From positions 62,001-126,000 of the forward strand of contig WGCV01000042.1 of assembly GCA_015493615.1 (NCBI GenBank): 64,000 nucleotides of DNA. Reading direction: 5' to 3'. Under the pieces are notes generated by a model. The model did no database searches. It saw only the letters and a list, made by a program, of their open reading frames with translations, and had not been told where the DNA came from. This document shows positions 33,544 to 38,932 of the stretch, one piece after another; position 1 is the stretch's first letter, and each line of letters starts with the position of its first letter. Source of the stretch: Melioribacteraceae bacterium (GTDB taxonomy: Bacteria; Bacteroidota; Ignavibacteria; Ignavibacteriales; Melioribacteraceae). The translations under genes were made by a program, and so were the position numbers.

Positions 33544-34029
33544 CTATAAATTAATGTTTTCATTTTTTGAAATGGATTCTTTGGCTAATTTCTTTTTGTA
33601 CTCCGTTATTTTATTCCGTAAGTTCTCATCGGAAAGCGCGAGCATTTCAACTGCAAGAATAGCGGCATTTTTAGCCCCGTCGATAGCCACTGTCGCAACC
33701 GGAACTCCGCTCGGCATTTGTACAATTGATAAAAGCGAATCCATTCCGTCCAGTTTTGATTTAATCGGCACTCCGATTACGGGCAGGATTGTATTTGCCG
33801 CTGTTACTCCCGCAAGATGAGCGGCTCCTCCGGCTCCGGCGATAATTACCTTTACGCCTCTTCCAGCCGCCTCCTTGGAATACTTTGCGTGCTCATCCGG
33901 AGTGCGATGCGCGGATAAAATTTTAACTTCAAAGGAAACGGCAAATTCTTTCAACAAATCCGCCGCTTTTTTCATAACGGATAAATCGGAATCGCTTCCC
34001 ATAATAATACTGACAACCGGATTTTTCAT
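33544..34029 (-). CDS. purE: N5-carboxyaminoimidazole ribonucleotide mutase
   Basis: A 161-aa enzyme of purine synthesis that moves the carboxylate of N5-CAIR to give CAIR. It has the PurE signature [12 protein letters not shown] near residue 11, the catalytic-site block SAHRTPDEH (about 41-49) and [17 protein letters not shown] (about 66-82). The C-terminus is typical. The partner PurK is not in the window, so whether this is a class I (N5-CAIR) or class II (AIR) enzyme cannot be told from its surroundings. Confidence 0.95.
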
Positions 34030-34242
34030 TTTCCACCATTTTGATTTAATAAAAACTTATTATGAAATATAAGTATTGGAATACAAATCCGACAGAACTC
34101 TTTAACGGAACAAAACCAAATTTTTCACACAAATGCCGAGGGGAATCTCCAAGTTTAAGTTAATCTCCGATTTTTAAAGTAACGCGGCATTCAACATACA
34201 CGGCTCGTCCTGAAAATTTCTTAAAGAGGAAAAAATGAAATT

Positions 34243-34893
34243 CTATTTTTTTCTGATTGAGCCTGCGCCGGAAACATGCTTGTTTATGAGCTTCGGATTA
34301 CCGACATAAGTTAAATCCGCTGCTCCGCTGACGTCGGCGTAAAGCGCATTTGTAACGTTAATCGTTCCGTTGGCAGCTCCCGAAACTTCAATTTTAGTCG
34401 TTTTGGTAACAAGGTTTTCTGCATCAAGGTCCGCCGCGCCGGAAAGGTCCACCTTGAACAAATCCGCCGCCCCGCTCAATGTAGCTTCCGCCGCTCCGCT
34501 TATATCGAGACTGAGCATATCCGTTTTGATTCCGTTAACAACTAAAGTATTTGCTCCGGATAAATCGACTCCGTTAAGCTGCCTGGTTGTAATCTCTACA
34601 AGTAATTTCCGGGTTGGCGAAACATTCTTACGCGTGGAAAGATAAAGTGTGTTGTCTTTTACTTTTATTCTAACATACTTCATCAGATTTGAATCGGTAA
34701 TCAATTTAAGTTCGGGCTTATCCCCGAAATTAACTTTTATGTAAAATGCGCCGGAAGCGTCAATCAAACGGAAATTCTCAACCGGAATTTCTTTAACCGT
34801 TATATCGCCGTTGCCTCTTACTTTATGAAAACCGCATCCTGCTGCCAACGCAAGTCCTACAACTAATAACAACGCTTTACTTAAAATTTTCAT
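34243..34893 (-). CDS. DUF2807 lipoprotein (head GIN domain)
   Basis: A 216-aa lipoprotein: hydrophobic signal (about 5-18) and AAGCG lipobox with Cys20. The mature part is a DUF2807/GIN-type beta-helix: GNGDITVKEIPVENFRLIDASGAF, then repeated SGAAxxx turns (DISGAAEATL, DLSGAADLDA, EVSGAANGTI, DVSGAADLTY) spaced about 18-20 residues, consistent with a right-handed solenoid. Such proteins are common in Bacteroidota outer membranes; their role is unknown. The gene stands alone. Confidence 0.88.
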   Translation of the reverse strand: MKILSKALLLVVGLALAAGCGFHKVRGNGDITVKEIPVENFRLIDASGAFYIKVNFGDKPELKLITDSNLMKYVRIKVKDNTLYLSTRKNVSPTRKLLVEITTRQLNGVDLSGANTLVVNGIKTDMLSLDISGAAEATLSGAADLFKVDLSGAADLDAENLVTKTTKIEVSGAANGTINVTNALYADVSGAADLTYVGNPKLINKHVSGAGSIRKK

Positions 34894-35002: not shown

Positions 35003-38000
35003 TTGAAAGAAGAAAAGTTTTACAAATTACTCGACGAAGCATTTGACCATTTATGGAACGGACGTTTCAGACTTGCGCTTCCTATTGCCGAGAAACTTGT
35101 AAACGATCGCCCGAACAACAGCAAGGTTGCAATCTGTTACGCTTGGGCGCTTCTTGAAAACGGCGACCCTGTCGGCGCCATGGAATACGCCAATTCCGCC
35201 GTTGAACTAAACCGCGACCCGCTTATTTCAAATCTCTATCGAGGTTATCTCCTAATGCGGATGAGTATTTTTGAAGGAGCTATCGCAGACCTCGAAGTTG
35301 CGCATCGCGAACATTTAAAATATTTTGTCTGGAGTTTGGAGAATAAAGCAAAAGCATTTGCCGGATTAAATAATTTTGACGAAGCTCTCGAGCAAATTTC
35401 CCTTGCGTTAAATCTTGACCCTACTAAAAACCCTACGCTTCCGGAACGATATAAGCTTTATGTACAAGCCGTTAAAGTTTCTCACGGAAATAAGAAACTT
35501 GATTTACCCTACGCAAAAAAAATTGTTGAATATTGCGAACGGGCTTTTAAGTATAAGGAGTATTGGTTTCCACTCTATTTCTCGCGAAAGATTACAGCCG
35601 AAAAAGATTTAGCCGAATTACACGAAACGGCGCAAATATCGGAAATAGAAGCGATGTTTTATTTGTTCCAGTATCTTCCCGCATTCAAAAAGGCGGAAGA
35701 ATTAAAAGATCGTCTCTCAGGAAATCCAAGATTTGAAAAGGTTTACAAATTACTCCTTCCGAGAGTTAAGAAGAAAAAATCACTTATCTCAAAAACTTTA
35801 TTTGATGATGATAAGAAAAAAACTAAAGAGGAAACACCTGCAAAGAAAATAGATAAATCTCTCCTCCGTTCCGAATCCCTTTTCTATCCTCACGAAAAAG
35901 GAGATGTTTTTAAACTTCAACTTTTTGACGAGAAAGATCCTTTCTTTGAAAAAGGAGTCGGTCCCTATTATTCATCTATCGACATTACGAAGAAGAAAAA
36001 AATCGCTGTCGAAGTAGTCTTTGCCAATCCCCTTTTCCGTATCGAAGATTCGGTAATCGAAGGAAAACTGGCTTGGTATGTTAACGATTTTCTAATTTCA
36101 ACAAATGTTTTTGAAGTTCCTGTCTCTAACGAATGGGATTCGGTTGTATTTTCACAACCCCTCGAAAACGACAAAAACTTCCGGCAGGAAGGACAGGGAA
36201 AAGTTGAACTTTATTTTGATAATTTCAAAGTTGCGGAAACGTATTTTATCCTTTCGGATAAAGATGAAAAGATTGTCGAAAAACCGCTGCCGGACAAAGA
36301 GAATGAGAAAGGCGATAAAGAAAAAACGGAGATTAAAAATAAACTAAGTTCCCAAAGCAAAATAATCGAACCGGAAGAAAAATCGATTGAAGAACTTCTT
36401 AAAGAGCTTGATGAATTTATCGGTTTGGAATCGATAAAATCGGGGATAAGGGAATTAATTGACTATCTTAAATTTCAGAAGAAACGCGAAAAACTCGGAC
36501 TAAAATCATCCGAAGAAGTGAACGTTCATTCTTTGTTTATCGGTAATCCTGGCACCGGCAAAACAACAATCGCCAGACTTATGGGGCAACTTTTCCGCGC
36601 AATGGGAATTCTGCCGAAAGGACATGTTGTTGAAGTTGACCGCTCCGCCCTTGTGGGAGAGTTTGTCGGACAAACGGCGCAAAAAACCGATCAAGCCATT
36701 GAATCCGCTCTCGGCGGAGTACTTTTTATTGACGAAGCATACACCTTGTACAAGCCCGGAGGTAAAGATTTCGGGCAGGAAGCGATTGATATTCTCCTTA
36801 AACGAATGGAAGATAAAAAGGGAGAGTTTATTGTCATCGCCGCCGGTTATCCTGATGAAATGGAATCTTTTCTGCAGGCAAACCCGGGACTGAAATCGAG
36901 ATTTAACCGCAAGTTTATTTTCGAAGATTACACTCCCGACGAGATGATGAAAATCTTCGAGCTGATGCTGAAGAAAAACGAATATGAAATTAATGACGAA
37001 GCTAGGGAGTTCCTTGCAAAAAAATTTCTCGAGCTTTACAGAAAAAGGAATAAGAATTTCGGCAACGCAAGAGAAGTAAGAAGAATCTTCGACAAAGCAA
37101 AACTTAATCTCAGCAAGCGTCTCCTGAAATTATCGGAAGACGAATTGAAAGAAATTACAAAAGAGCAATTTTCCACATTCGTTCTTTCCGACATTGATAA
37201 AGTCTTTTCCGAAGACACCGCCAAAAACGTAAAACTGGGAATTGACGAAGAAGAGTTAGAAGCGGCGCTGAATGAGCTTAACATCTTGATCGGCATTAAT
37301 TCCATTAAGAATGAAGTAAACCGGCTTGTAAAATTAGCCCGATATTTTGCCGAACAGGGGGAAGACTTAAAAAGCAAATTTTCTGATCACATTCTCTTTT
37401 TGGGCAATCCCGGCACAGGTAAAACTACCGTTGCGCGAATTATCTCAAAAATCTTTTCGGCGCTTGGCGTTTTGGAGAAAGGGCATCTTGTTGAAACCGA
37501 CAGAGAAGGATTGGTTTCCGGTTTCATTGGTCAGACCGCCGAAAAAACAATGAATATGATTAACAAAGCAATGGGCGGAACGCTTTTTATCGACGAAGCA
37601 TACACTCTCGTTAAACAGGGCGATGAAAAGGATTTCGGAAAAGAAGCGATTGACACTCTTCTAAAGCAGATGGAGGACAACAAAGGAAAGTTCATAGTAA
37701 TTGCCGCCGGTTACACCGATGAAATGAAAAGGTTTATCGAAAGCAATCCGGGGATGAAATCCCGCTTCAGCAAAATTTTTGAATTTGAGGATTACACTCC
37801 CGACGAACTAATCGAAGTTGCCGAAAAACTTTTCGAATCTAAAAACCTAACGCTTGACGAGAAAGCTAAAGAAAAATTGCGTCTCTATTTAATGGAGCAA
37901 TACCGCAACCGCGATAAAACATTCGGAAACGTCCGTCTTGTACGGAACATAGTTGAAAAAACTCAGCAGCAGCATCTTTTACGCCTTGCGGACTTAACCC

Positions 38001-38932
38001 CTGATGAACGTGAAAAAATTCCGCAGAACCTGGTTACGGTTGAAGACATTCTCCCACAAATTTCCGAGAAACGCAAAACTGAAAAATTTACTATTGAAGG
38101 AAATCCTGAAAAATTACAGCAGCTTCTTGAGGAACTGAATTCTCTGACAGGGTTGGATAACGTTAAATCAGAAGTTAACAGATTGGTTAAAAGTTTGAAG
38201 GTTACCAAGATGCGGCAGGAACGCGGCTTAAAGATTATTGACAGAAGTCTTCACTCCGTTTTTACCGGCAATCCCGGCACGGGAAAAACAACTGTCGCCA
38301 GACTTCTCAGCGGCATCTACAAAGAATTGGGACTGCTTGAAAAAGGTCATCTCGTGGAATGCGACCGTTCCGCGCTTGTCGCCGGTTATCAAGGACAAAC
38401 GGCAATCAAAGCCGACGGATTAATCAAACAGGCTATCGGCGGCACTTTATTTATTGATGAAGCTTACACACTTTCCCGCGGAGCTAATGATTTCGGGCAG
38501 GAAGCGATTGACATCCTTCTAAAACGAATGGAAGATTACAAAGGAAAGTTTGCTGTAATCGTCGCCGGCTATACCGAAGAGATGGAACAGTTTTTAAGCT
38601 CCAATCCCGGACTGCAATCCCGTTTCCAAATTAAACTCCATTTTGAAGATTACACTCCGCGCCAGCTTCTTGAAATTGCATACAACATAGGGAACGCCAA
38701 CGGTTACATTCTGGATGAAGGCGCTTTACAGCTTCTTCTCGAAATTTTTGAAAAACTCTATGAAAAAAGGGATAAGAATTTCGGAAATGCAAGAACCGCT
38801 AAGAATATTCTCTTTAAGATTATCAGTTATCAGGAGGAACGTATTTCAAACTCGGTTGACTTGACAGATAACGATTTTGTAACGCTGACTTACGAAGATG
38901 TACAAAGTTTGATTGAGAACTCCGATTTTTGA
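35003..38932 (+). CDS. TPR protein with three CbxX/CfxQ-type AAA+ ATPase domains
   Basis: A 1309-aa cytoplasmic protein. The N-terminal TPR region (about 1-215) is followed by a charged linker, a beta-rich domain (about 290-430) and an acidic coiled segment. Three AAA+ modules of the CbxX/CfxQ family follow, each with NPGTGKTT Walker A (about 515, 800 and 1090), a GQTAxK block, LFIDEAYTL Walker B and an SRF arginine-finger segment. Each module is preceded by L-x-GL/I-x-x-[IV]K linker helices. Single-module relatives include the rubisco activase CbbX and the EccA component of type VII secretion, but no rubisco or ESX genes are here. All three ATPase sites look intact. The start is TTG with a weak ribosome site. 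Confidence 0.88.
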   Translation: MKEEKFYKLLDEAFDHLWNGRFRLALPIAEKLVNDRPNNSKVAICYAWALLENGDPVGAMEYANSAVELNRDPLISNLYRGYLLMRMSIFEGAIADLEVAHREHLKYFVWSLENKAKAFAGLNNFDEALEQISLALNLDPTKNPTLPERYKLYVQAVKVSHGNKKLDLPYAKKIVEYCERAFKYKEYWFPLYFSRKITAEKDLAELHETAQISEIEAMFYLFQYLPAFKKAEELKDRLSGNPRFEKVYKLLLPRVKKKKSLISKTLFDDDKKKTKEETPAKKIDKSLLRSESLFYPHEKGDVFKLQLFDEKDPFFEKGVGPYYSSIDITKKKKIAVEVVFANPLFRIEDSVIEGKLAWYVNDFLISTNVFEVPVSNEWDSVVFSQPLENDKNFRQEGQGKVELYFDNFKVAETYFILSDKDEKIVEKPLPDKENEKGDKEKTEIKNKLSSQSKIIEPEEKSIEELLKELDEFIGLESIKSGIRELIDYLKFQKKREKLGLKSSEEVNVHSLFIGNPGTGKTTIARLMGQLFRAMGILPKGHVVEVDRSALVGEFVGQTAQKTDQAIESALGGVLFIDEAYTLYKPGGKDFGQEAIDILLKRMEDKKGEFIVIAAGYPDEMESFLQANPGLKSRFNRKFIFEDYTPDEMMKIFELMLKKNEYEINDEAREFLAKKFLELYRKRNKNFGNAREVRRIFDKAKLNLSKRLLKLSEDELKEITKEQFSTFVLSDIDKVFSEDTAKNVKLGIDEEELEAALNELNILIGINSIKNEVNRLVKLARYFAEQGEDLKSKFSDHILFLGNPGTGKTTVARIISKIFSALGVLEKGHLVETDREGLVSGFIGQTAEKTMNMINKAMGGTLFIDEAYTLVKQGDEKDFGKEAIDTLLKQMEDNKGKFIVIAAGYTDEMKRFIESNPGMKSRFSKIFEFEDYTPDELIEVAEKLFESKNLTLDEKAKEKLRLYLMEQYRNRDKTFGNVRLVRNIVEKTQQQHLLRLADLTPDEREKIPQNLVTVEDILPQISEKRKTEKFTIEGNPEKLQQLLEELNSLTGLDNVKSEVNRLVKSLKVTKMRQERGLKIIDRSLHSVFTGNPGTGKTTVARLLSGIYKELGLLEKGHLVECDRSALVAGYQGQTAIKADGLIKQAIGGTLFIDEAYTLSRGANDFGQEAIDILLKRMEDYKGKFAVIVAGYTEEMEQFLSSNPGLQSRFQIKLHFEDYTPRQLLEIAYNIGNANGYILDEGALQLLLEIFEKLYEKRDKNFGNARTAKNILFKIISYQEERISNSVDLTDNDFVTLTYEDVQSLIENSDF

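Follow-up and report, generated by a model that had tools for sequence, protein, structure and literature searches.

A TPR-beta protein with three fused CbxX-type AAA+ modules is widespread in the bacterial order Ignavibacteriales

A single gene encodes a TPR domain, a beta domain and three CbxX-type AAA+ modules

We analysed a 64,000-nucleotide stretch of DNA (hereafter the window) from a Melioribacteraceae bacterium (assembly GCA_015493615.1, contig WGCV01000042.1, positions 62,001 to 126,000 of the forward strand), which carries at 35003..38932, on the plus strand, one open reading frame with a TTG start encoding a protein of 1,309 amino acids. A first-pass annotation made from the letters alone had described it as a giant protein combining TPRs (tetratricopeptide repeats), a beta-rich domain and three CbxX modules with all their motifs, an observation that is confirmed by Pfam, motif inspection and AlphaFold2 modelling. 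All domains given below lie on the plus strand, in the order TPR, beta domain, three CbxX-type AAA+ modules.

The N-terminal TPR solenoid (amino acids 1-262; 35003..35788) is indicated by Pfam matches at residues 19-79 and 112-141 (PF07719 and PF14559, over cut-off), by an AlphaFold2 model built on 31 orthologous N-termini (mean predicted local distance difference test, pLDDT, 88.6; predicted template modelling score, pTM, 0.57) with 13 helices across residues 3-267, and by the structure matches to this model, mostly TPR proteins, which cover residues 1-263. A linker predicted to be disordered (264-282; pLDDT <50) separates it from the mostly beta domain (289-424; 35867..36274), modelled as strands from 292 to 424 with a single short helix at 313-317. 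As this domain is also alignable in 31/31 orthologues examined, the beta-rich region first placed at about 290-430 is real. In the window protein it has no Pfam match at E 0.1, and scans of 31 and of 26 members gave no Pfam family shared by two or more of them, a faint similarity to DUF3859 being limited to 1 of the 26. Sequence profiles returned no convincing solved relative (best E values 0.11 and 0.23), and the fold was not named by Foldseek and VIA-align, whose rows were occupied by the TPR part; this failure does not amount to a new fold. The beta profile matches 43 of 395 genomes of the phylum. The TPR and beta domains are presumed to serve in client or partner binding, the latter as a recruitment domain.

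The C-terminal part comprises three modules, M1 (amino acids 463-734; 36389..37204), M2 (752-1016; 37256..38050) and M3 (1038-1302; 38114..38908), corresponding to three PF00004 (AAA) and three PF17866 (AAA_lid_6) stretches, both families being over cut-off. Every module carries the Walker A GNPGTGKTT, Walker B LFIDEAY, sensor-1 GY, NPGxxSRF and sensor-2 FGN[AV]R motifs, and the asparagine that opens NPGxxSRF in all three sits six residues before the arginine taken as the arginine finger. The individual modules are well predicted in the model of the AAA region (mean pLDDT 85.9), the best structural match of which is CbbX (3syl_B), aligned onto M3 (Z 28.2; root-mean-square deviation 4.3 over 268 residues; 40% identity). 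CbbX is also the best solved homologue by sequence (E 9e-62).

M1 is conserved more strictly than M2 and M3

Motifs were counted in the orthologues aligned end to end, namely 31 proteins from 29 genomes, taken from 41 loci read; the shorter relatives at loci L069, L070 and L071 were left out (L numbers designate the loci of relatives). M1 retains the Walker A, Walker B and arginine finger together in 31/31 orthologues, M2 in 29/31 and M3 in 25/31. M2 is degenerate in L078 and in L042, which comes from the window's own genus, and M3 is degenerate in L045, L046, L060, L078, L079 and L080. The aromatic residue of the pore loop is kept in 31 (M1), 24 (M2) and 27 (M3) of the 31 orthologues, six of the seven misses in M2 being a histidine. 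The sensor-1 GY, found in 3/3 window modules, occurs in 31/31 (M1), 29/31 (M2) and 24/31 (M3) orthologues, and the second arginine finger (sensor-2), also in 3/3 window modules, in 31/31, 30/31 and 26/31, respectively.

The initial description of three complete modules therefore stands for the window protein, but all three are intact in only 24 of the 31 orthologues; the modules are not equivalent, M2 and M3 having lost motifs in some proteins and M1 in none. Because of this difference in motif retention, M1 looks like the indispensable motor. The pitch of the modules is nearly constant, with 288-290 residues from M1 to M2 and 279-291 from M2 to M3, in a sample of 50 proteins that counts some genomes twice, under two sources.

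The architecture is common within one bacterial order

A protein search matched 48 of 58 genomes (own included). In 38 of these a single alignment starts no later than residue 17 and ends no earlier than residue 1300; two of the 38 have a reported in-frame stop. Such essentially whole-length alignments argue that the architecture is not due to chance and, judged by these matches, the protein is a widespread family of one bacterial order, not a one-off. In agreement, the TPR+beta profile, run against 294 sampled genomes of the class, matched 53, each of which belongs to one of three families (f1, f2 and f3) of the window's order, Ignavibacteriales; one of them (G035) matched through the beta part only. 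At least six genomes of the order have no TPR+beta match, among the non-matching genomes listed (221 others lie outside that list).

The architecture had first been put forward as unusual, to be abandoned if it proved common and already assigned a function. Its rarity did not hold, since it is common within the order, and the other half stood, no assigned function being found. No title on a TPR-beta-3xCbxX protein occurs among the literature matches listed; figure 3A of PMC10659427 draws selected architectures, so that the protein may have been published before.

Module history in shorter and longer relatives

Domain mapping showed that the main family has the TPR-beta-AAA-AAA-AAA architecture, and that shorter relatives are organised as TPR-beta-AAA-AAA (L069 and L070), beta-AAA-AAA (L071), beta-beta-AAA-AAA (L105 and L170-L174, and likewise L102, with one beta domain detected), beta-beta-AAA (L175) or AAA-AAA with no beta domain detected (L068). 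The beta domain, which is thus doubled in other Bacteroidota proteins, also occurs as a pair without any AAA module, in 278-residue proteins (L167:9474-10310, L168:9525-10361 and L179:37-873) and in the middle of a 661-residue protein (L169:9112-11097) that looks exported by eye and has a faint DUF3859 similarity below cut-off. By eye, the two sequences inspected, L167 and L169, have N-termini resembling signal peptides, so that the beta domain seems to be used outside the cytoplasm too.

A FastTree phylogeny of 108 modules of at least about 180 residues, from 14 of the 31 main-family proteins and from relatives, grouped the modules by position, with SH-like supports of 0.92 (M1), 0.999 (M2) and 0.99 (M3). 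The first modules of the beta-beta-AAA-AAA proteins join M1 (0.88) and their second modules join M2 (0.97). According to this tree, the modules are old and specific to their position in the chain. L069 and L070 each have one module grouping with M1 and one with M3, so that M2 was probably lost there, and a module of L118 (a Halalkalibacter record) branches beside the M1 group, so that the M1 lineage extends beyond Bacteroidota.

Other tandem CbxX proteins were observed. Two-module proteins occur in Bacillota records and in one Coriobacteriales record (L107-L114 and L117), with a shorter pitch (275-279) and no beta match. At L102:2742-7679 the two-module relative is immediately preceded, on the same strand, by a gene that looks FtsH-like by eye. 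Six genomes of the order contain a second tandem family whose chains have between four and six CbxX modules, the first of them divergent (L062:156-5189, L063:8793-12134, L064:8060-12235, L065:7109-10453, L066:4811-8968 and L067:7074-11252). Genes of two clusters follow it on the 3' side at 6/6 loci (in L063, a zinc-ribbon/FHA protein and a PP2C phosphatase), and at 5/6 loci (L062 begins at a contig end) other genes precede it on the 5' side, represented in L063 by a double-zinc-ribbon protein and a Ser/Thr kinase. These multi-module loci have the appearance of a phospho-signalling operon.

The protein appears to belong to the SpoVK-CbbX-EccA clade without being any of its named members

The window protein possesses the AAA core paired with AAA_lid_6 (a clade criterion of this analysis, not of PMC10659427), the sensor-1 GY and the sensor-2 arginine, as well as the EccA-like order of a TPR domain followed by a CbxX-type module. 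In the portions of PMC10659427 used here, the members of this clade characterised so far are dedicated chaperones that vary in their N-terminal domains and act on narrow targets, and for which no association with peptidases was found; SpoVK, which has a short N-terminal domain, is described there as a MurG-activating chaperone reported only in sporulating Firmicutes.

Automatic annotation would name the protein a rubisco activase, a type VII secretion ATPase or a SpoVK orthologue, because the whole protein, scoring 817 for SpoVK, 681 for EccA and 662 for CbbX, exceeds all three NCBIfam equivalog cut-offs at once. This triple pass is the sum over three modules, since each alone is far below: single modules score 213-294 bits against cut-offs of 423-467, that is 213-254 against 459 for CbbX, 233-240 against 467 for EccA (scored without the TPR part) and 273-294 against 423 for SpoVK, the best single-module family score. 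The rubisco large subunit was found in 0/58 genomes, own included, by a search positive in 5/14 controls, and WXG100 (PF06013), the only ESX part (type VII secretion) searched, was absent from the one genome examined, the window's own, by a search positive in 2/14 controls. The first-pass remark that neither rubisco nor ESX genes lie nearby is borne out to this extent. We thus rejected the rubisco activase, in view of both the missing rubisco and the sub-threshold modules; the type VII secretion ATPase, on the equivalent two grounds, WXG100 being the sole ESX part looked for; and the SpoVK orthologue, each module being below cut-off (sporulation genes were not searched). Taken together, these three names have next to no chance of being right. 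Summed scoring of this kind is a likely source of wrong gene names, and it would lead to a protein being called SpoVK outside sporulating Firmicutes.

The PADLOC models IetA and TRIP13 match the window protein, and PHROGs gave one weak match, to the TPR region. A defence role was rejected: the PADLOC matches reflect local similarity between AAA domains, and the distribution of the gene is that of the order. More broadly, the protein could be an ATP-dependent scaffold or switch, in signalling or defence, rather than a threading motor, as might be argued from these matches, from the association of a TPR domain with an ATPase and from the motif loss in M2 or M3 of some orthologues. We find this very improbable, given that the pore-loop aromatics and arginine fingers are conserved and that the distribution is wide and order-bound.

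Gene neighbourhoods in the window and in relatives

In the window, the AAA gene is flanked by a divergent gene upstream and a convergent acpS-like gene (by eye) downstream, and therefore stands alone, as first claimed of its transcript unit; a promoter and terminator scan found nothing above shuffled controls. The upstream neighbour (34243..34893, minus strand) encodes a DUF2807 (head GIN) protein, which is not part of the machine. Together with a purE-like gene (by eye), it occupies 33544-34893, and the two genes recur beside the AAA gene at 16/31 and 15/31 orthologous loci, respectively.

The isolation of the gene does not extend to relatives. An ABC ATPase and a PF16949-type permease lie directly 3' of the AAA gene, on the same strand, in 10/31 orthologous loci (the Pfam names of the exporter genes being drawn from two permeases and one ATPase), and the gap to the ABC ATPase, measured at 11 loci including that of the shorter relative L071, is 2-56 bp. 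In a profile search the permease was present in 22/58 genomes, lying no more than 1 kb from the AAA gene in 15 of the 22 and elsewhere or on another contig in five, the AAA gene being absent from the last two. These exporter genes, neighbours in some relatives only, hint that the client may lie in the cell envelope or an export pathway. One could go further and regard the AAA+ protein as a component of ABC-2-type export, whose role would be to assemble, gate or feed the ABC ATPase and permease encoded downstream, the linkage being seen in two families of the order. We consider this unlikely: PF16949 has no match in the window's genome, nor is the permease found in four other searched members of the genus (two of them incomplete); among the 48 genomes that carry the AAA protein, 28 lack the permease, and seven of the 22 permease genomes have it away from, or without, the AAA gene. 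The permease as universal client was rejected, being absent from the window's genome in both searches.

Upstream, groEL (identified by eye from two sequences of its cluster) is found at 6 of 32 loci (the 31 orthologues plus L071), all in one family, at 109-151 bp in five and 1,464 bp in one. This linkage, together with the wide occurrence of the AAA protein in the order, could point to a general proteostasis unfoldase or disaggregase working with GroEL. Such a role appears quite unlikely: the linkage was seen in a single family out of three, those clade members that have been characterised act on narrow targets (in the portions of PMC10659427 used here) and seven near-complete genomes do without the AAA protein.

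A proposed remodelling chaperone with a partly covalent ring

From the clade signatures, the conserved motifs and the distribution, we propose, with fair but by no means full confidence, that the protein belongs to the SpoVK-CbbX-EccA clade and works as a dedicated AAA+ chaperone that remodels its client without proteolysis, by means of a ring that is in part covalent. In the cytoplasm, the TPR and beta domains would recruit a single client or client complex; the CbxX modules would assemble into an ATP-driven ring, the aromatic pore loops of which would grip the client peptide and pull on it; and this pulling would activate or rearrange the client. The fusion of three modules would produce a partly covalent ring with a fixed order of neighbours, in which M1 would be the obligatory motor, M2 and M3 being free to become structural or regulatory. 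This division of labour has a precedent, since in the red-algal hetero-oligomeric activase one isoform is mostly structural and the ATPase of the other is critical; in red-type activase the pore-loop tyrosine is required for activation, not for ATPase activity (both from the parts of PMC5437159 used here).

Six seats would result from two three-module chains or from three two-module chains. It is conceivable, and we put it forward tentatively as a possible rather than a probable extension, that these proteins form a natural series of covalently fused AAA+ rings, in which the three-module chain dimerises into a six-seat ring with the fixed order M1-M2-M3-M1-M2-M3 and unequal seats, the relatives having one, two, four, five or six modules, and the six-module chain being a whole ring in one polypeptide, independent of dynein and midasin. 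If so, the gene would encode a signature remodelling machine of Ignavibacteriales, with a recruitment domain of its own, the unannotated beta domain.

Several points weigh against these proposals or restrict them. First, 7/31 orthologues have lost core motifs in M2 or M3, and two-module relatives exist, so that the concerted action of three motors is not general. Second, the placement of the modules relative to each other is not readable from the model of the AAA region (pTM 0.39). Third, the six-seat divisor rule is not a law, because four- and five-module relatives fit no simple divisor. Fourth, the protein is not essential to the order, 10/58 genomes having no match, of which seven are at least 97% complete and one belongs to the window's genus. 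Fifth, the neighbours designate no general client or partner, given the permease-free genomes and the confinement of groEL adjacency to one family described above.

Few members of the SpoVK-CbbX-EccA clade have been characterised, and those that have act on a narrow client. An order-wide family whose fused modules differ in their freedom to lose catalysis would offer a direct way to ask which positions in an AAA+ ring need to hydrolyse ATP. The common beta domain, furthermore, ties the family to proteins across Bacteroidota.

Comparison with known systems

With CbbX, the red-type rubisco activase (3syl, 3syk and 3zuh), the window protein shares the CbbX fold, the AAA_lid_6-type lid and the pore-loop aromatic; CbbX has one module, whereas the window protein has three, plus the TPR and beta domains, in a set of genomes devoid of rubisco. 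EccA of type VII secretion (9lur, which matches M2 with E 9e-50) likewise has a TPR-containing N-terminus followed by a CbxX-type module, but this module is single, whereas the window protein has three, with a beta domain in between and no WXG100 in its genome. SpoVK, from the same clade of dedicated chaperones, is the family closest to the single modules by score; it differs by its short N-terminal domain and its restriction to sporulating Firmicutes, and its cut-off is reached by none of the three modules. The two-module beta-beta-AAA-AAA Bacteroidota proteins (L102, L105 and L170-L174) have the same beta domain and modules grouping with M1 and M2; they lack M3 and any match to TPR and carry the beta domain twice (detected once in L102), whereas the window protein has the TPR domain, one beta domain and M3. 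Finally, the CmN/CmP hetero-oligomeric activase of C. merolae, as presented in the parts of PMC5437159 used here, resembles the proposed machine in being a ring that combines catalytic and mainly structural subunits; these subunits are separate chains, whereas the modules of the window protein are fused in one.

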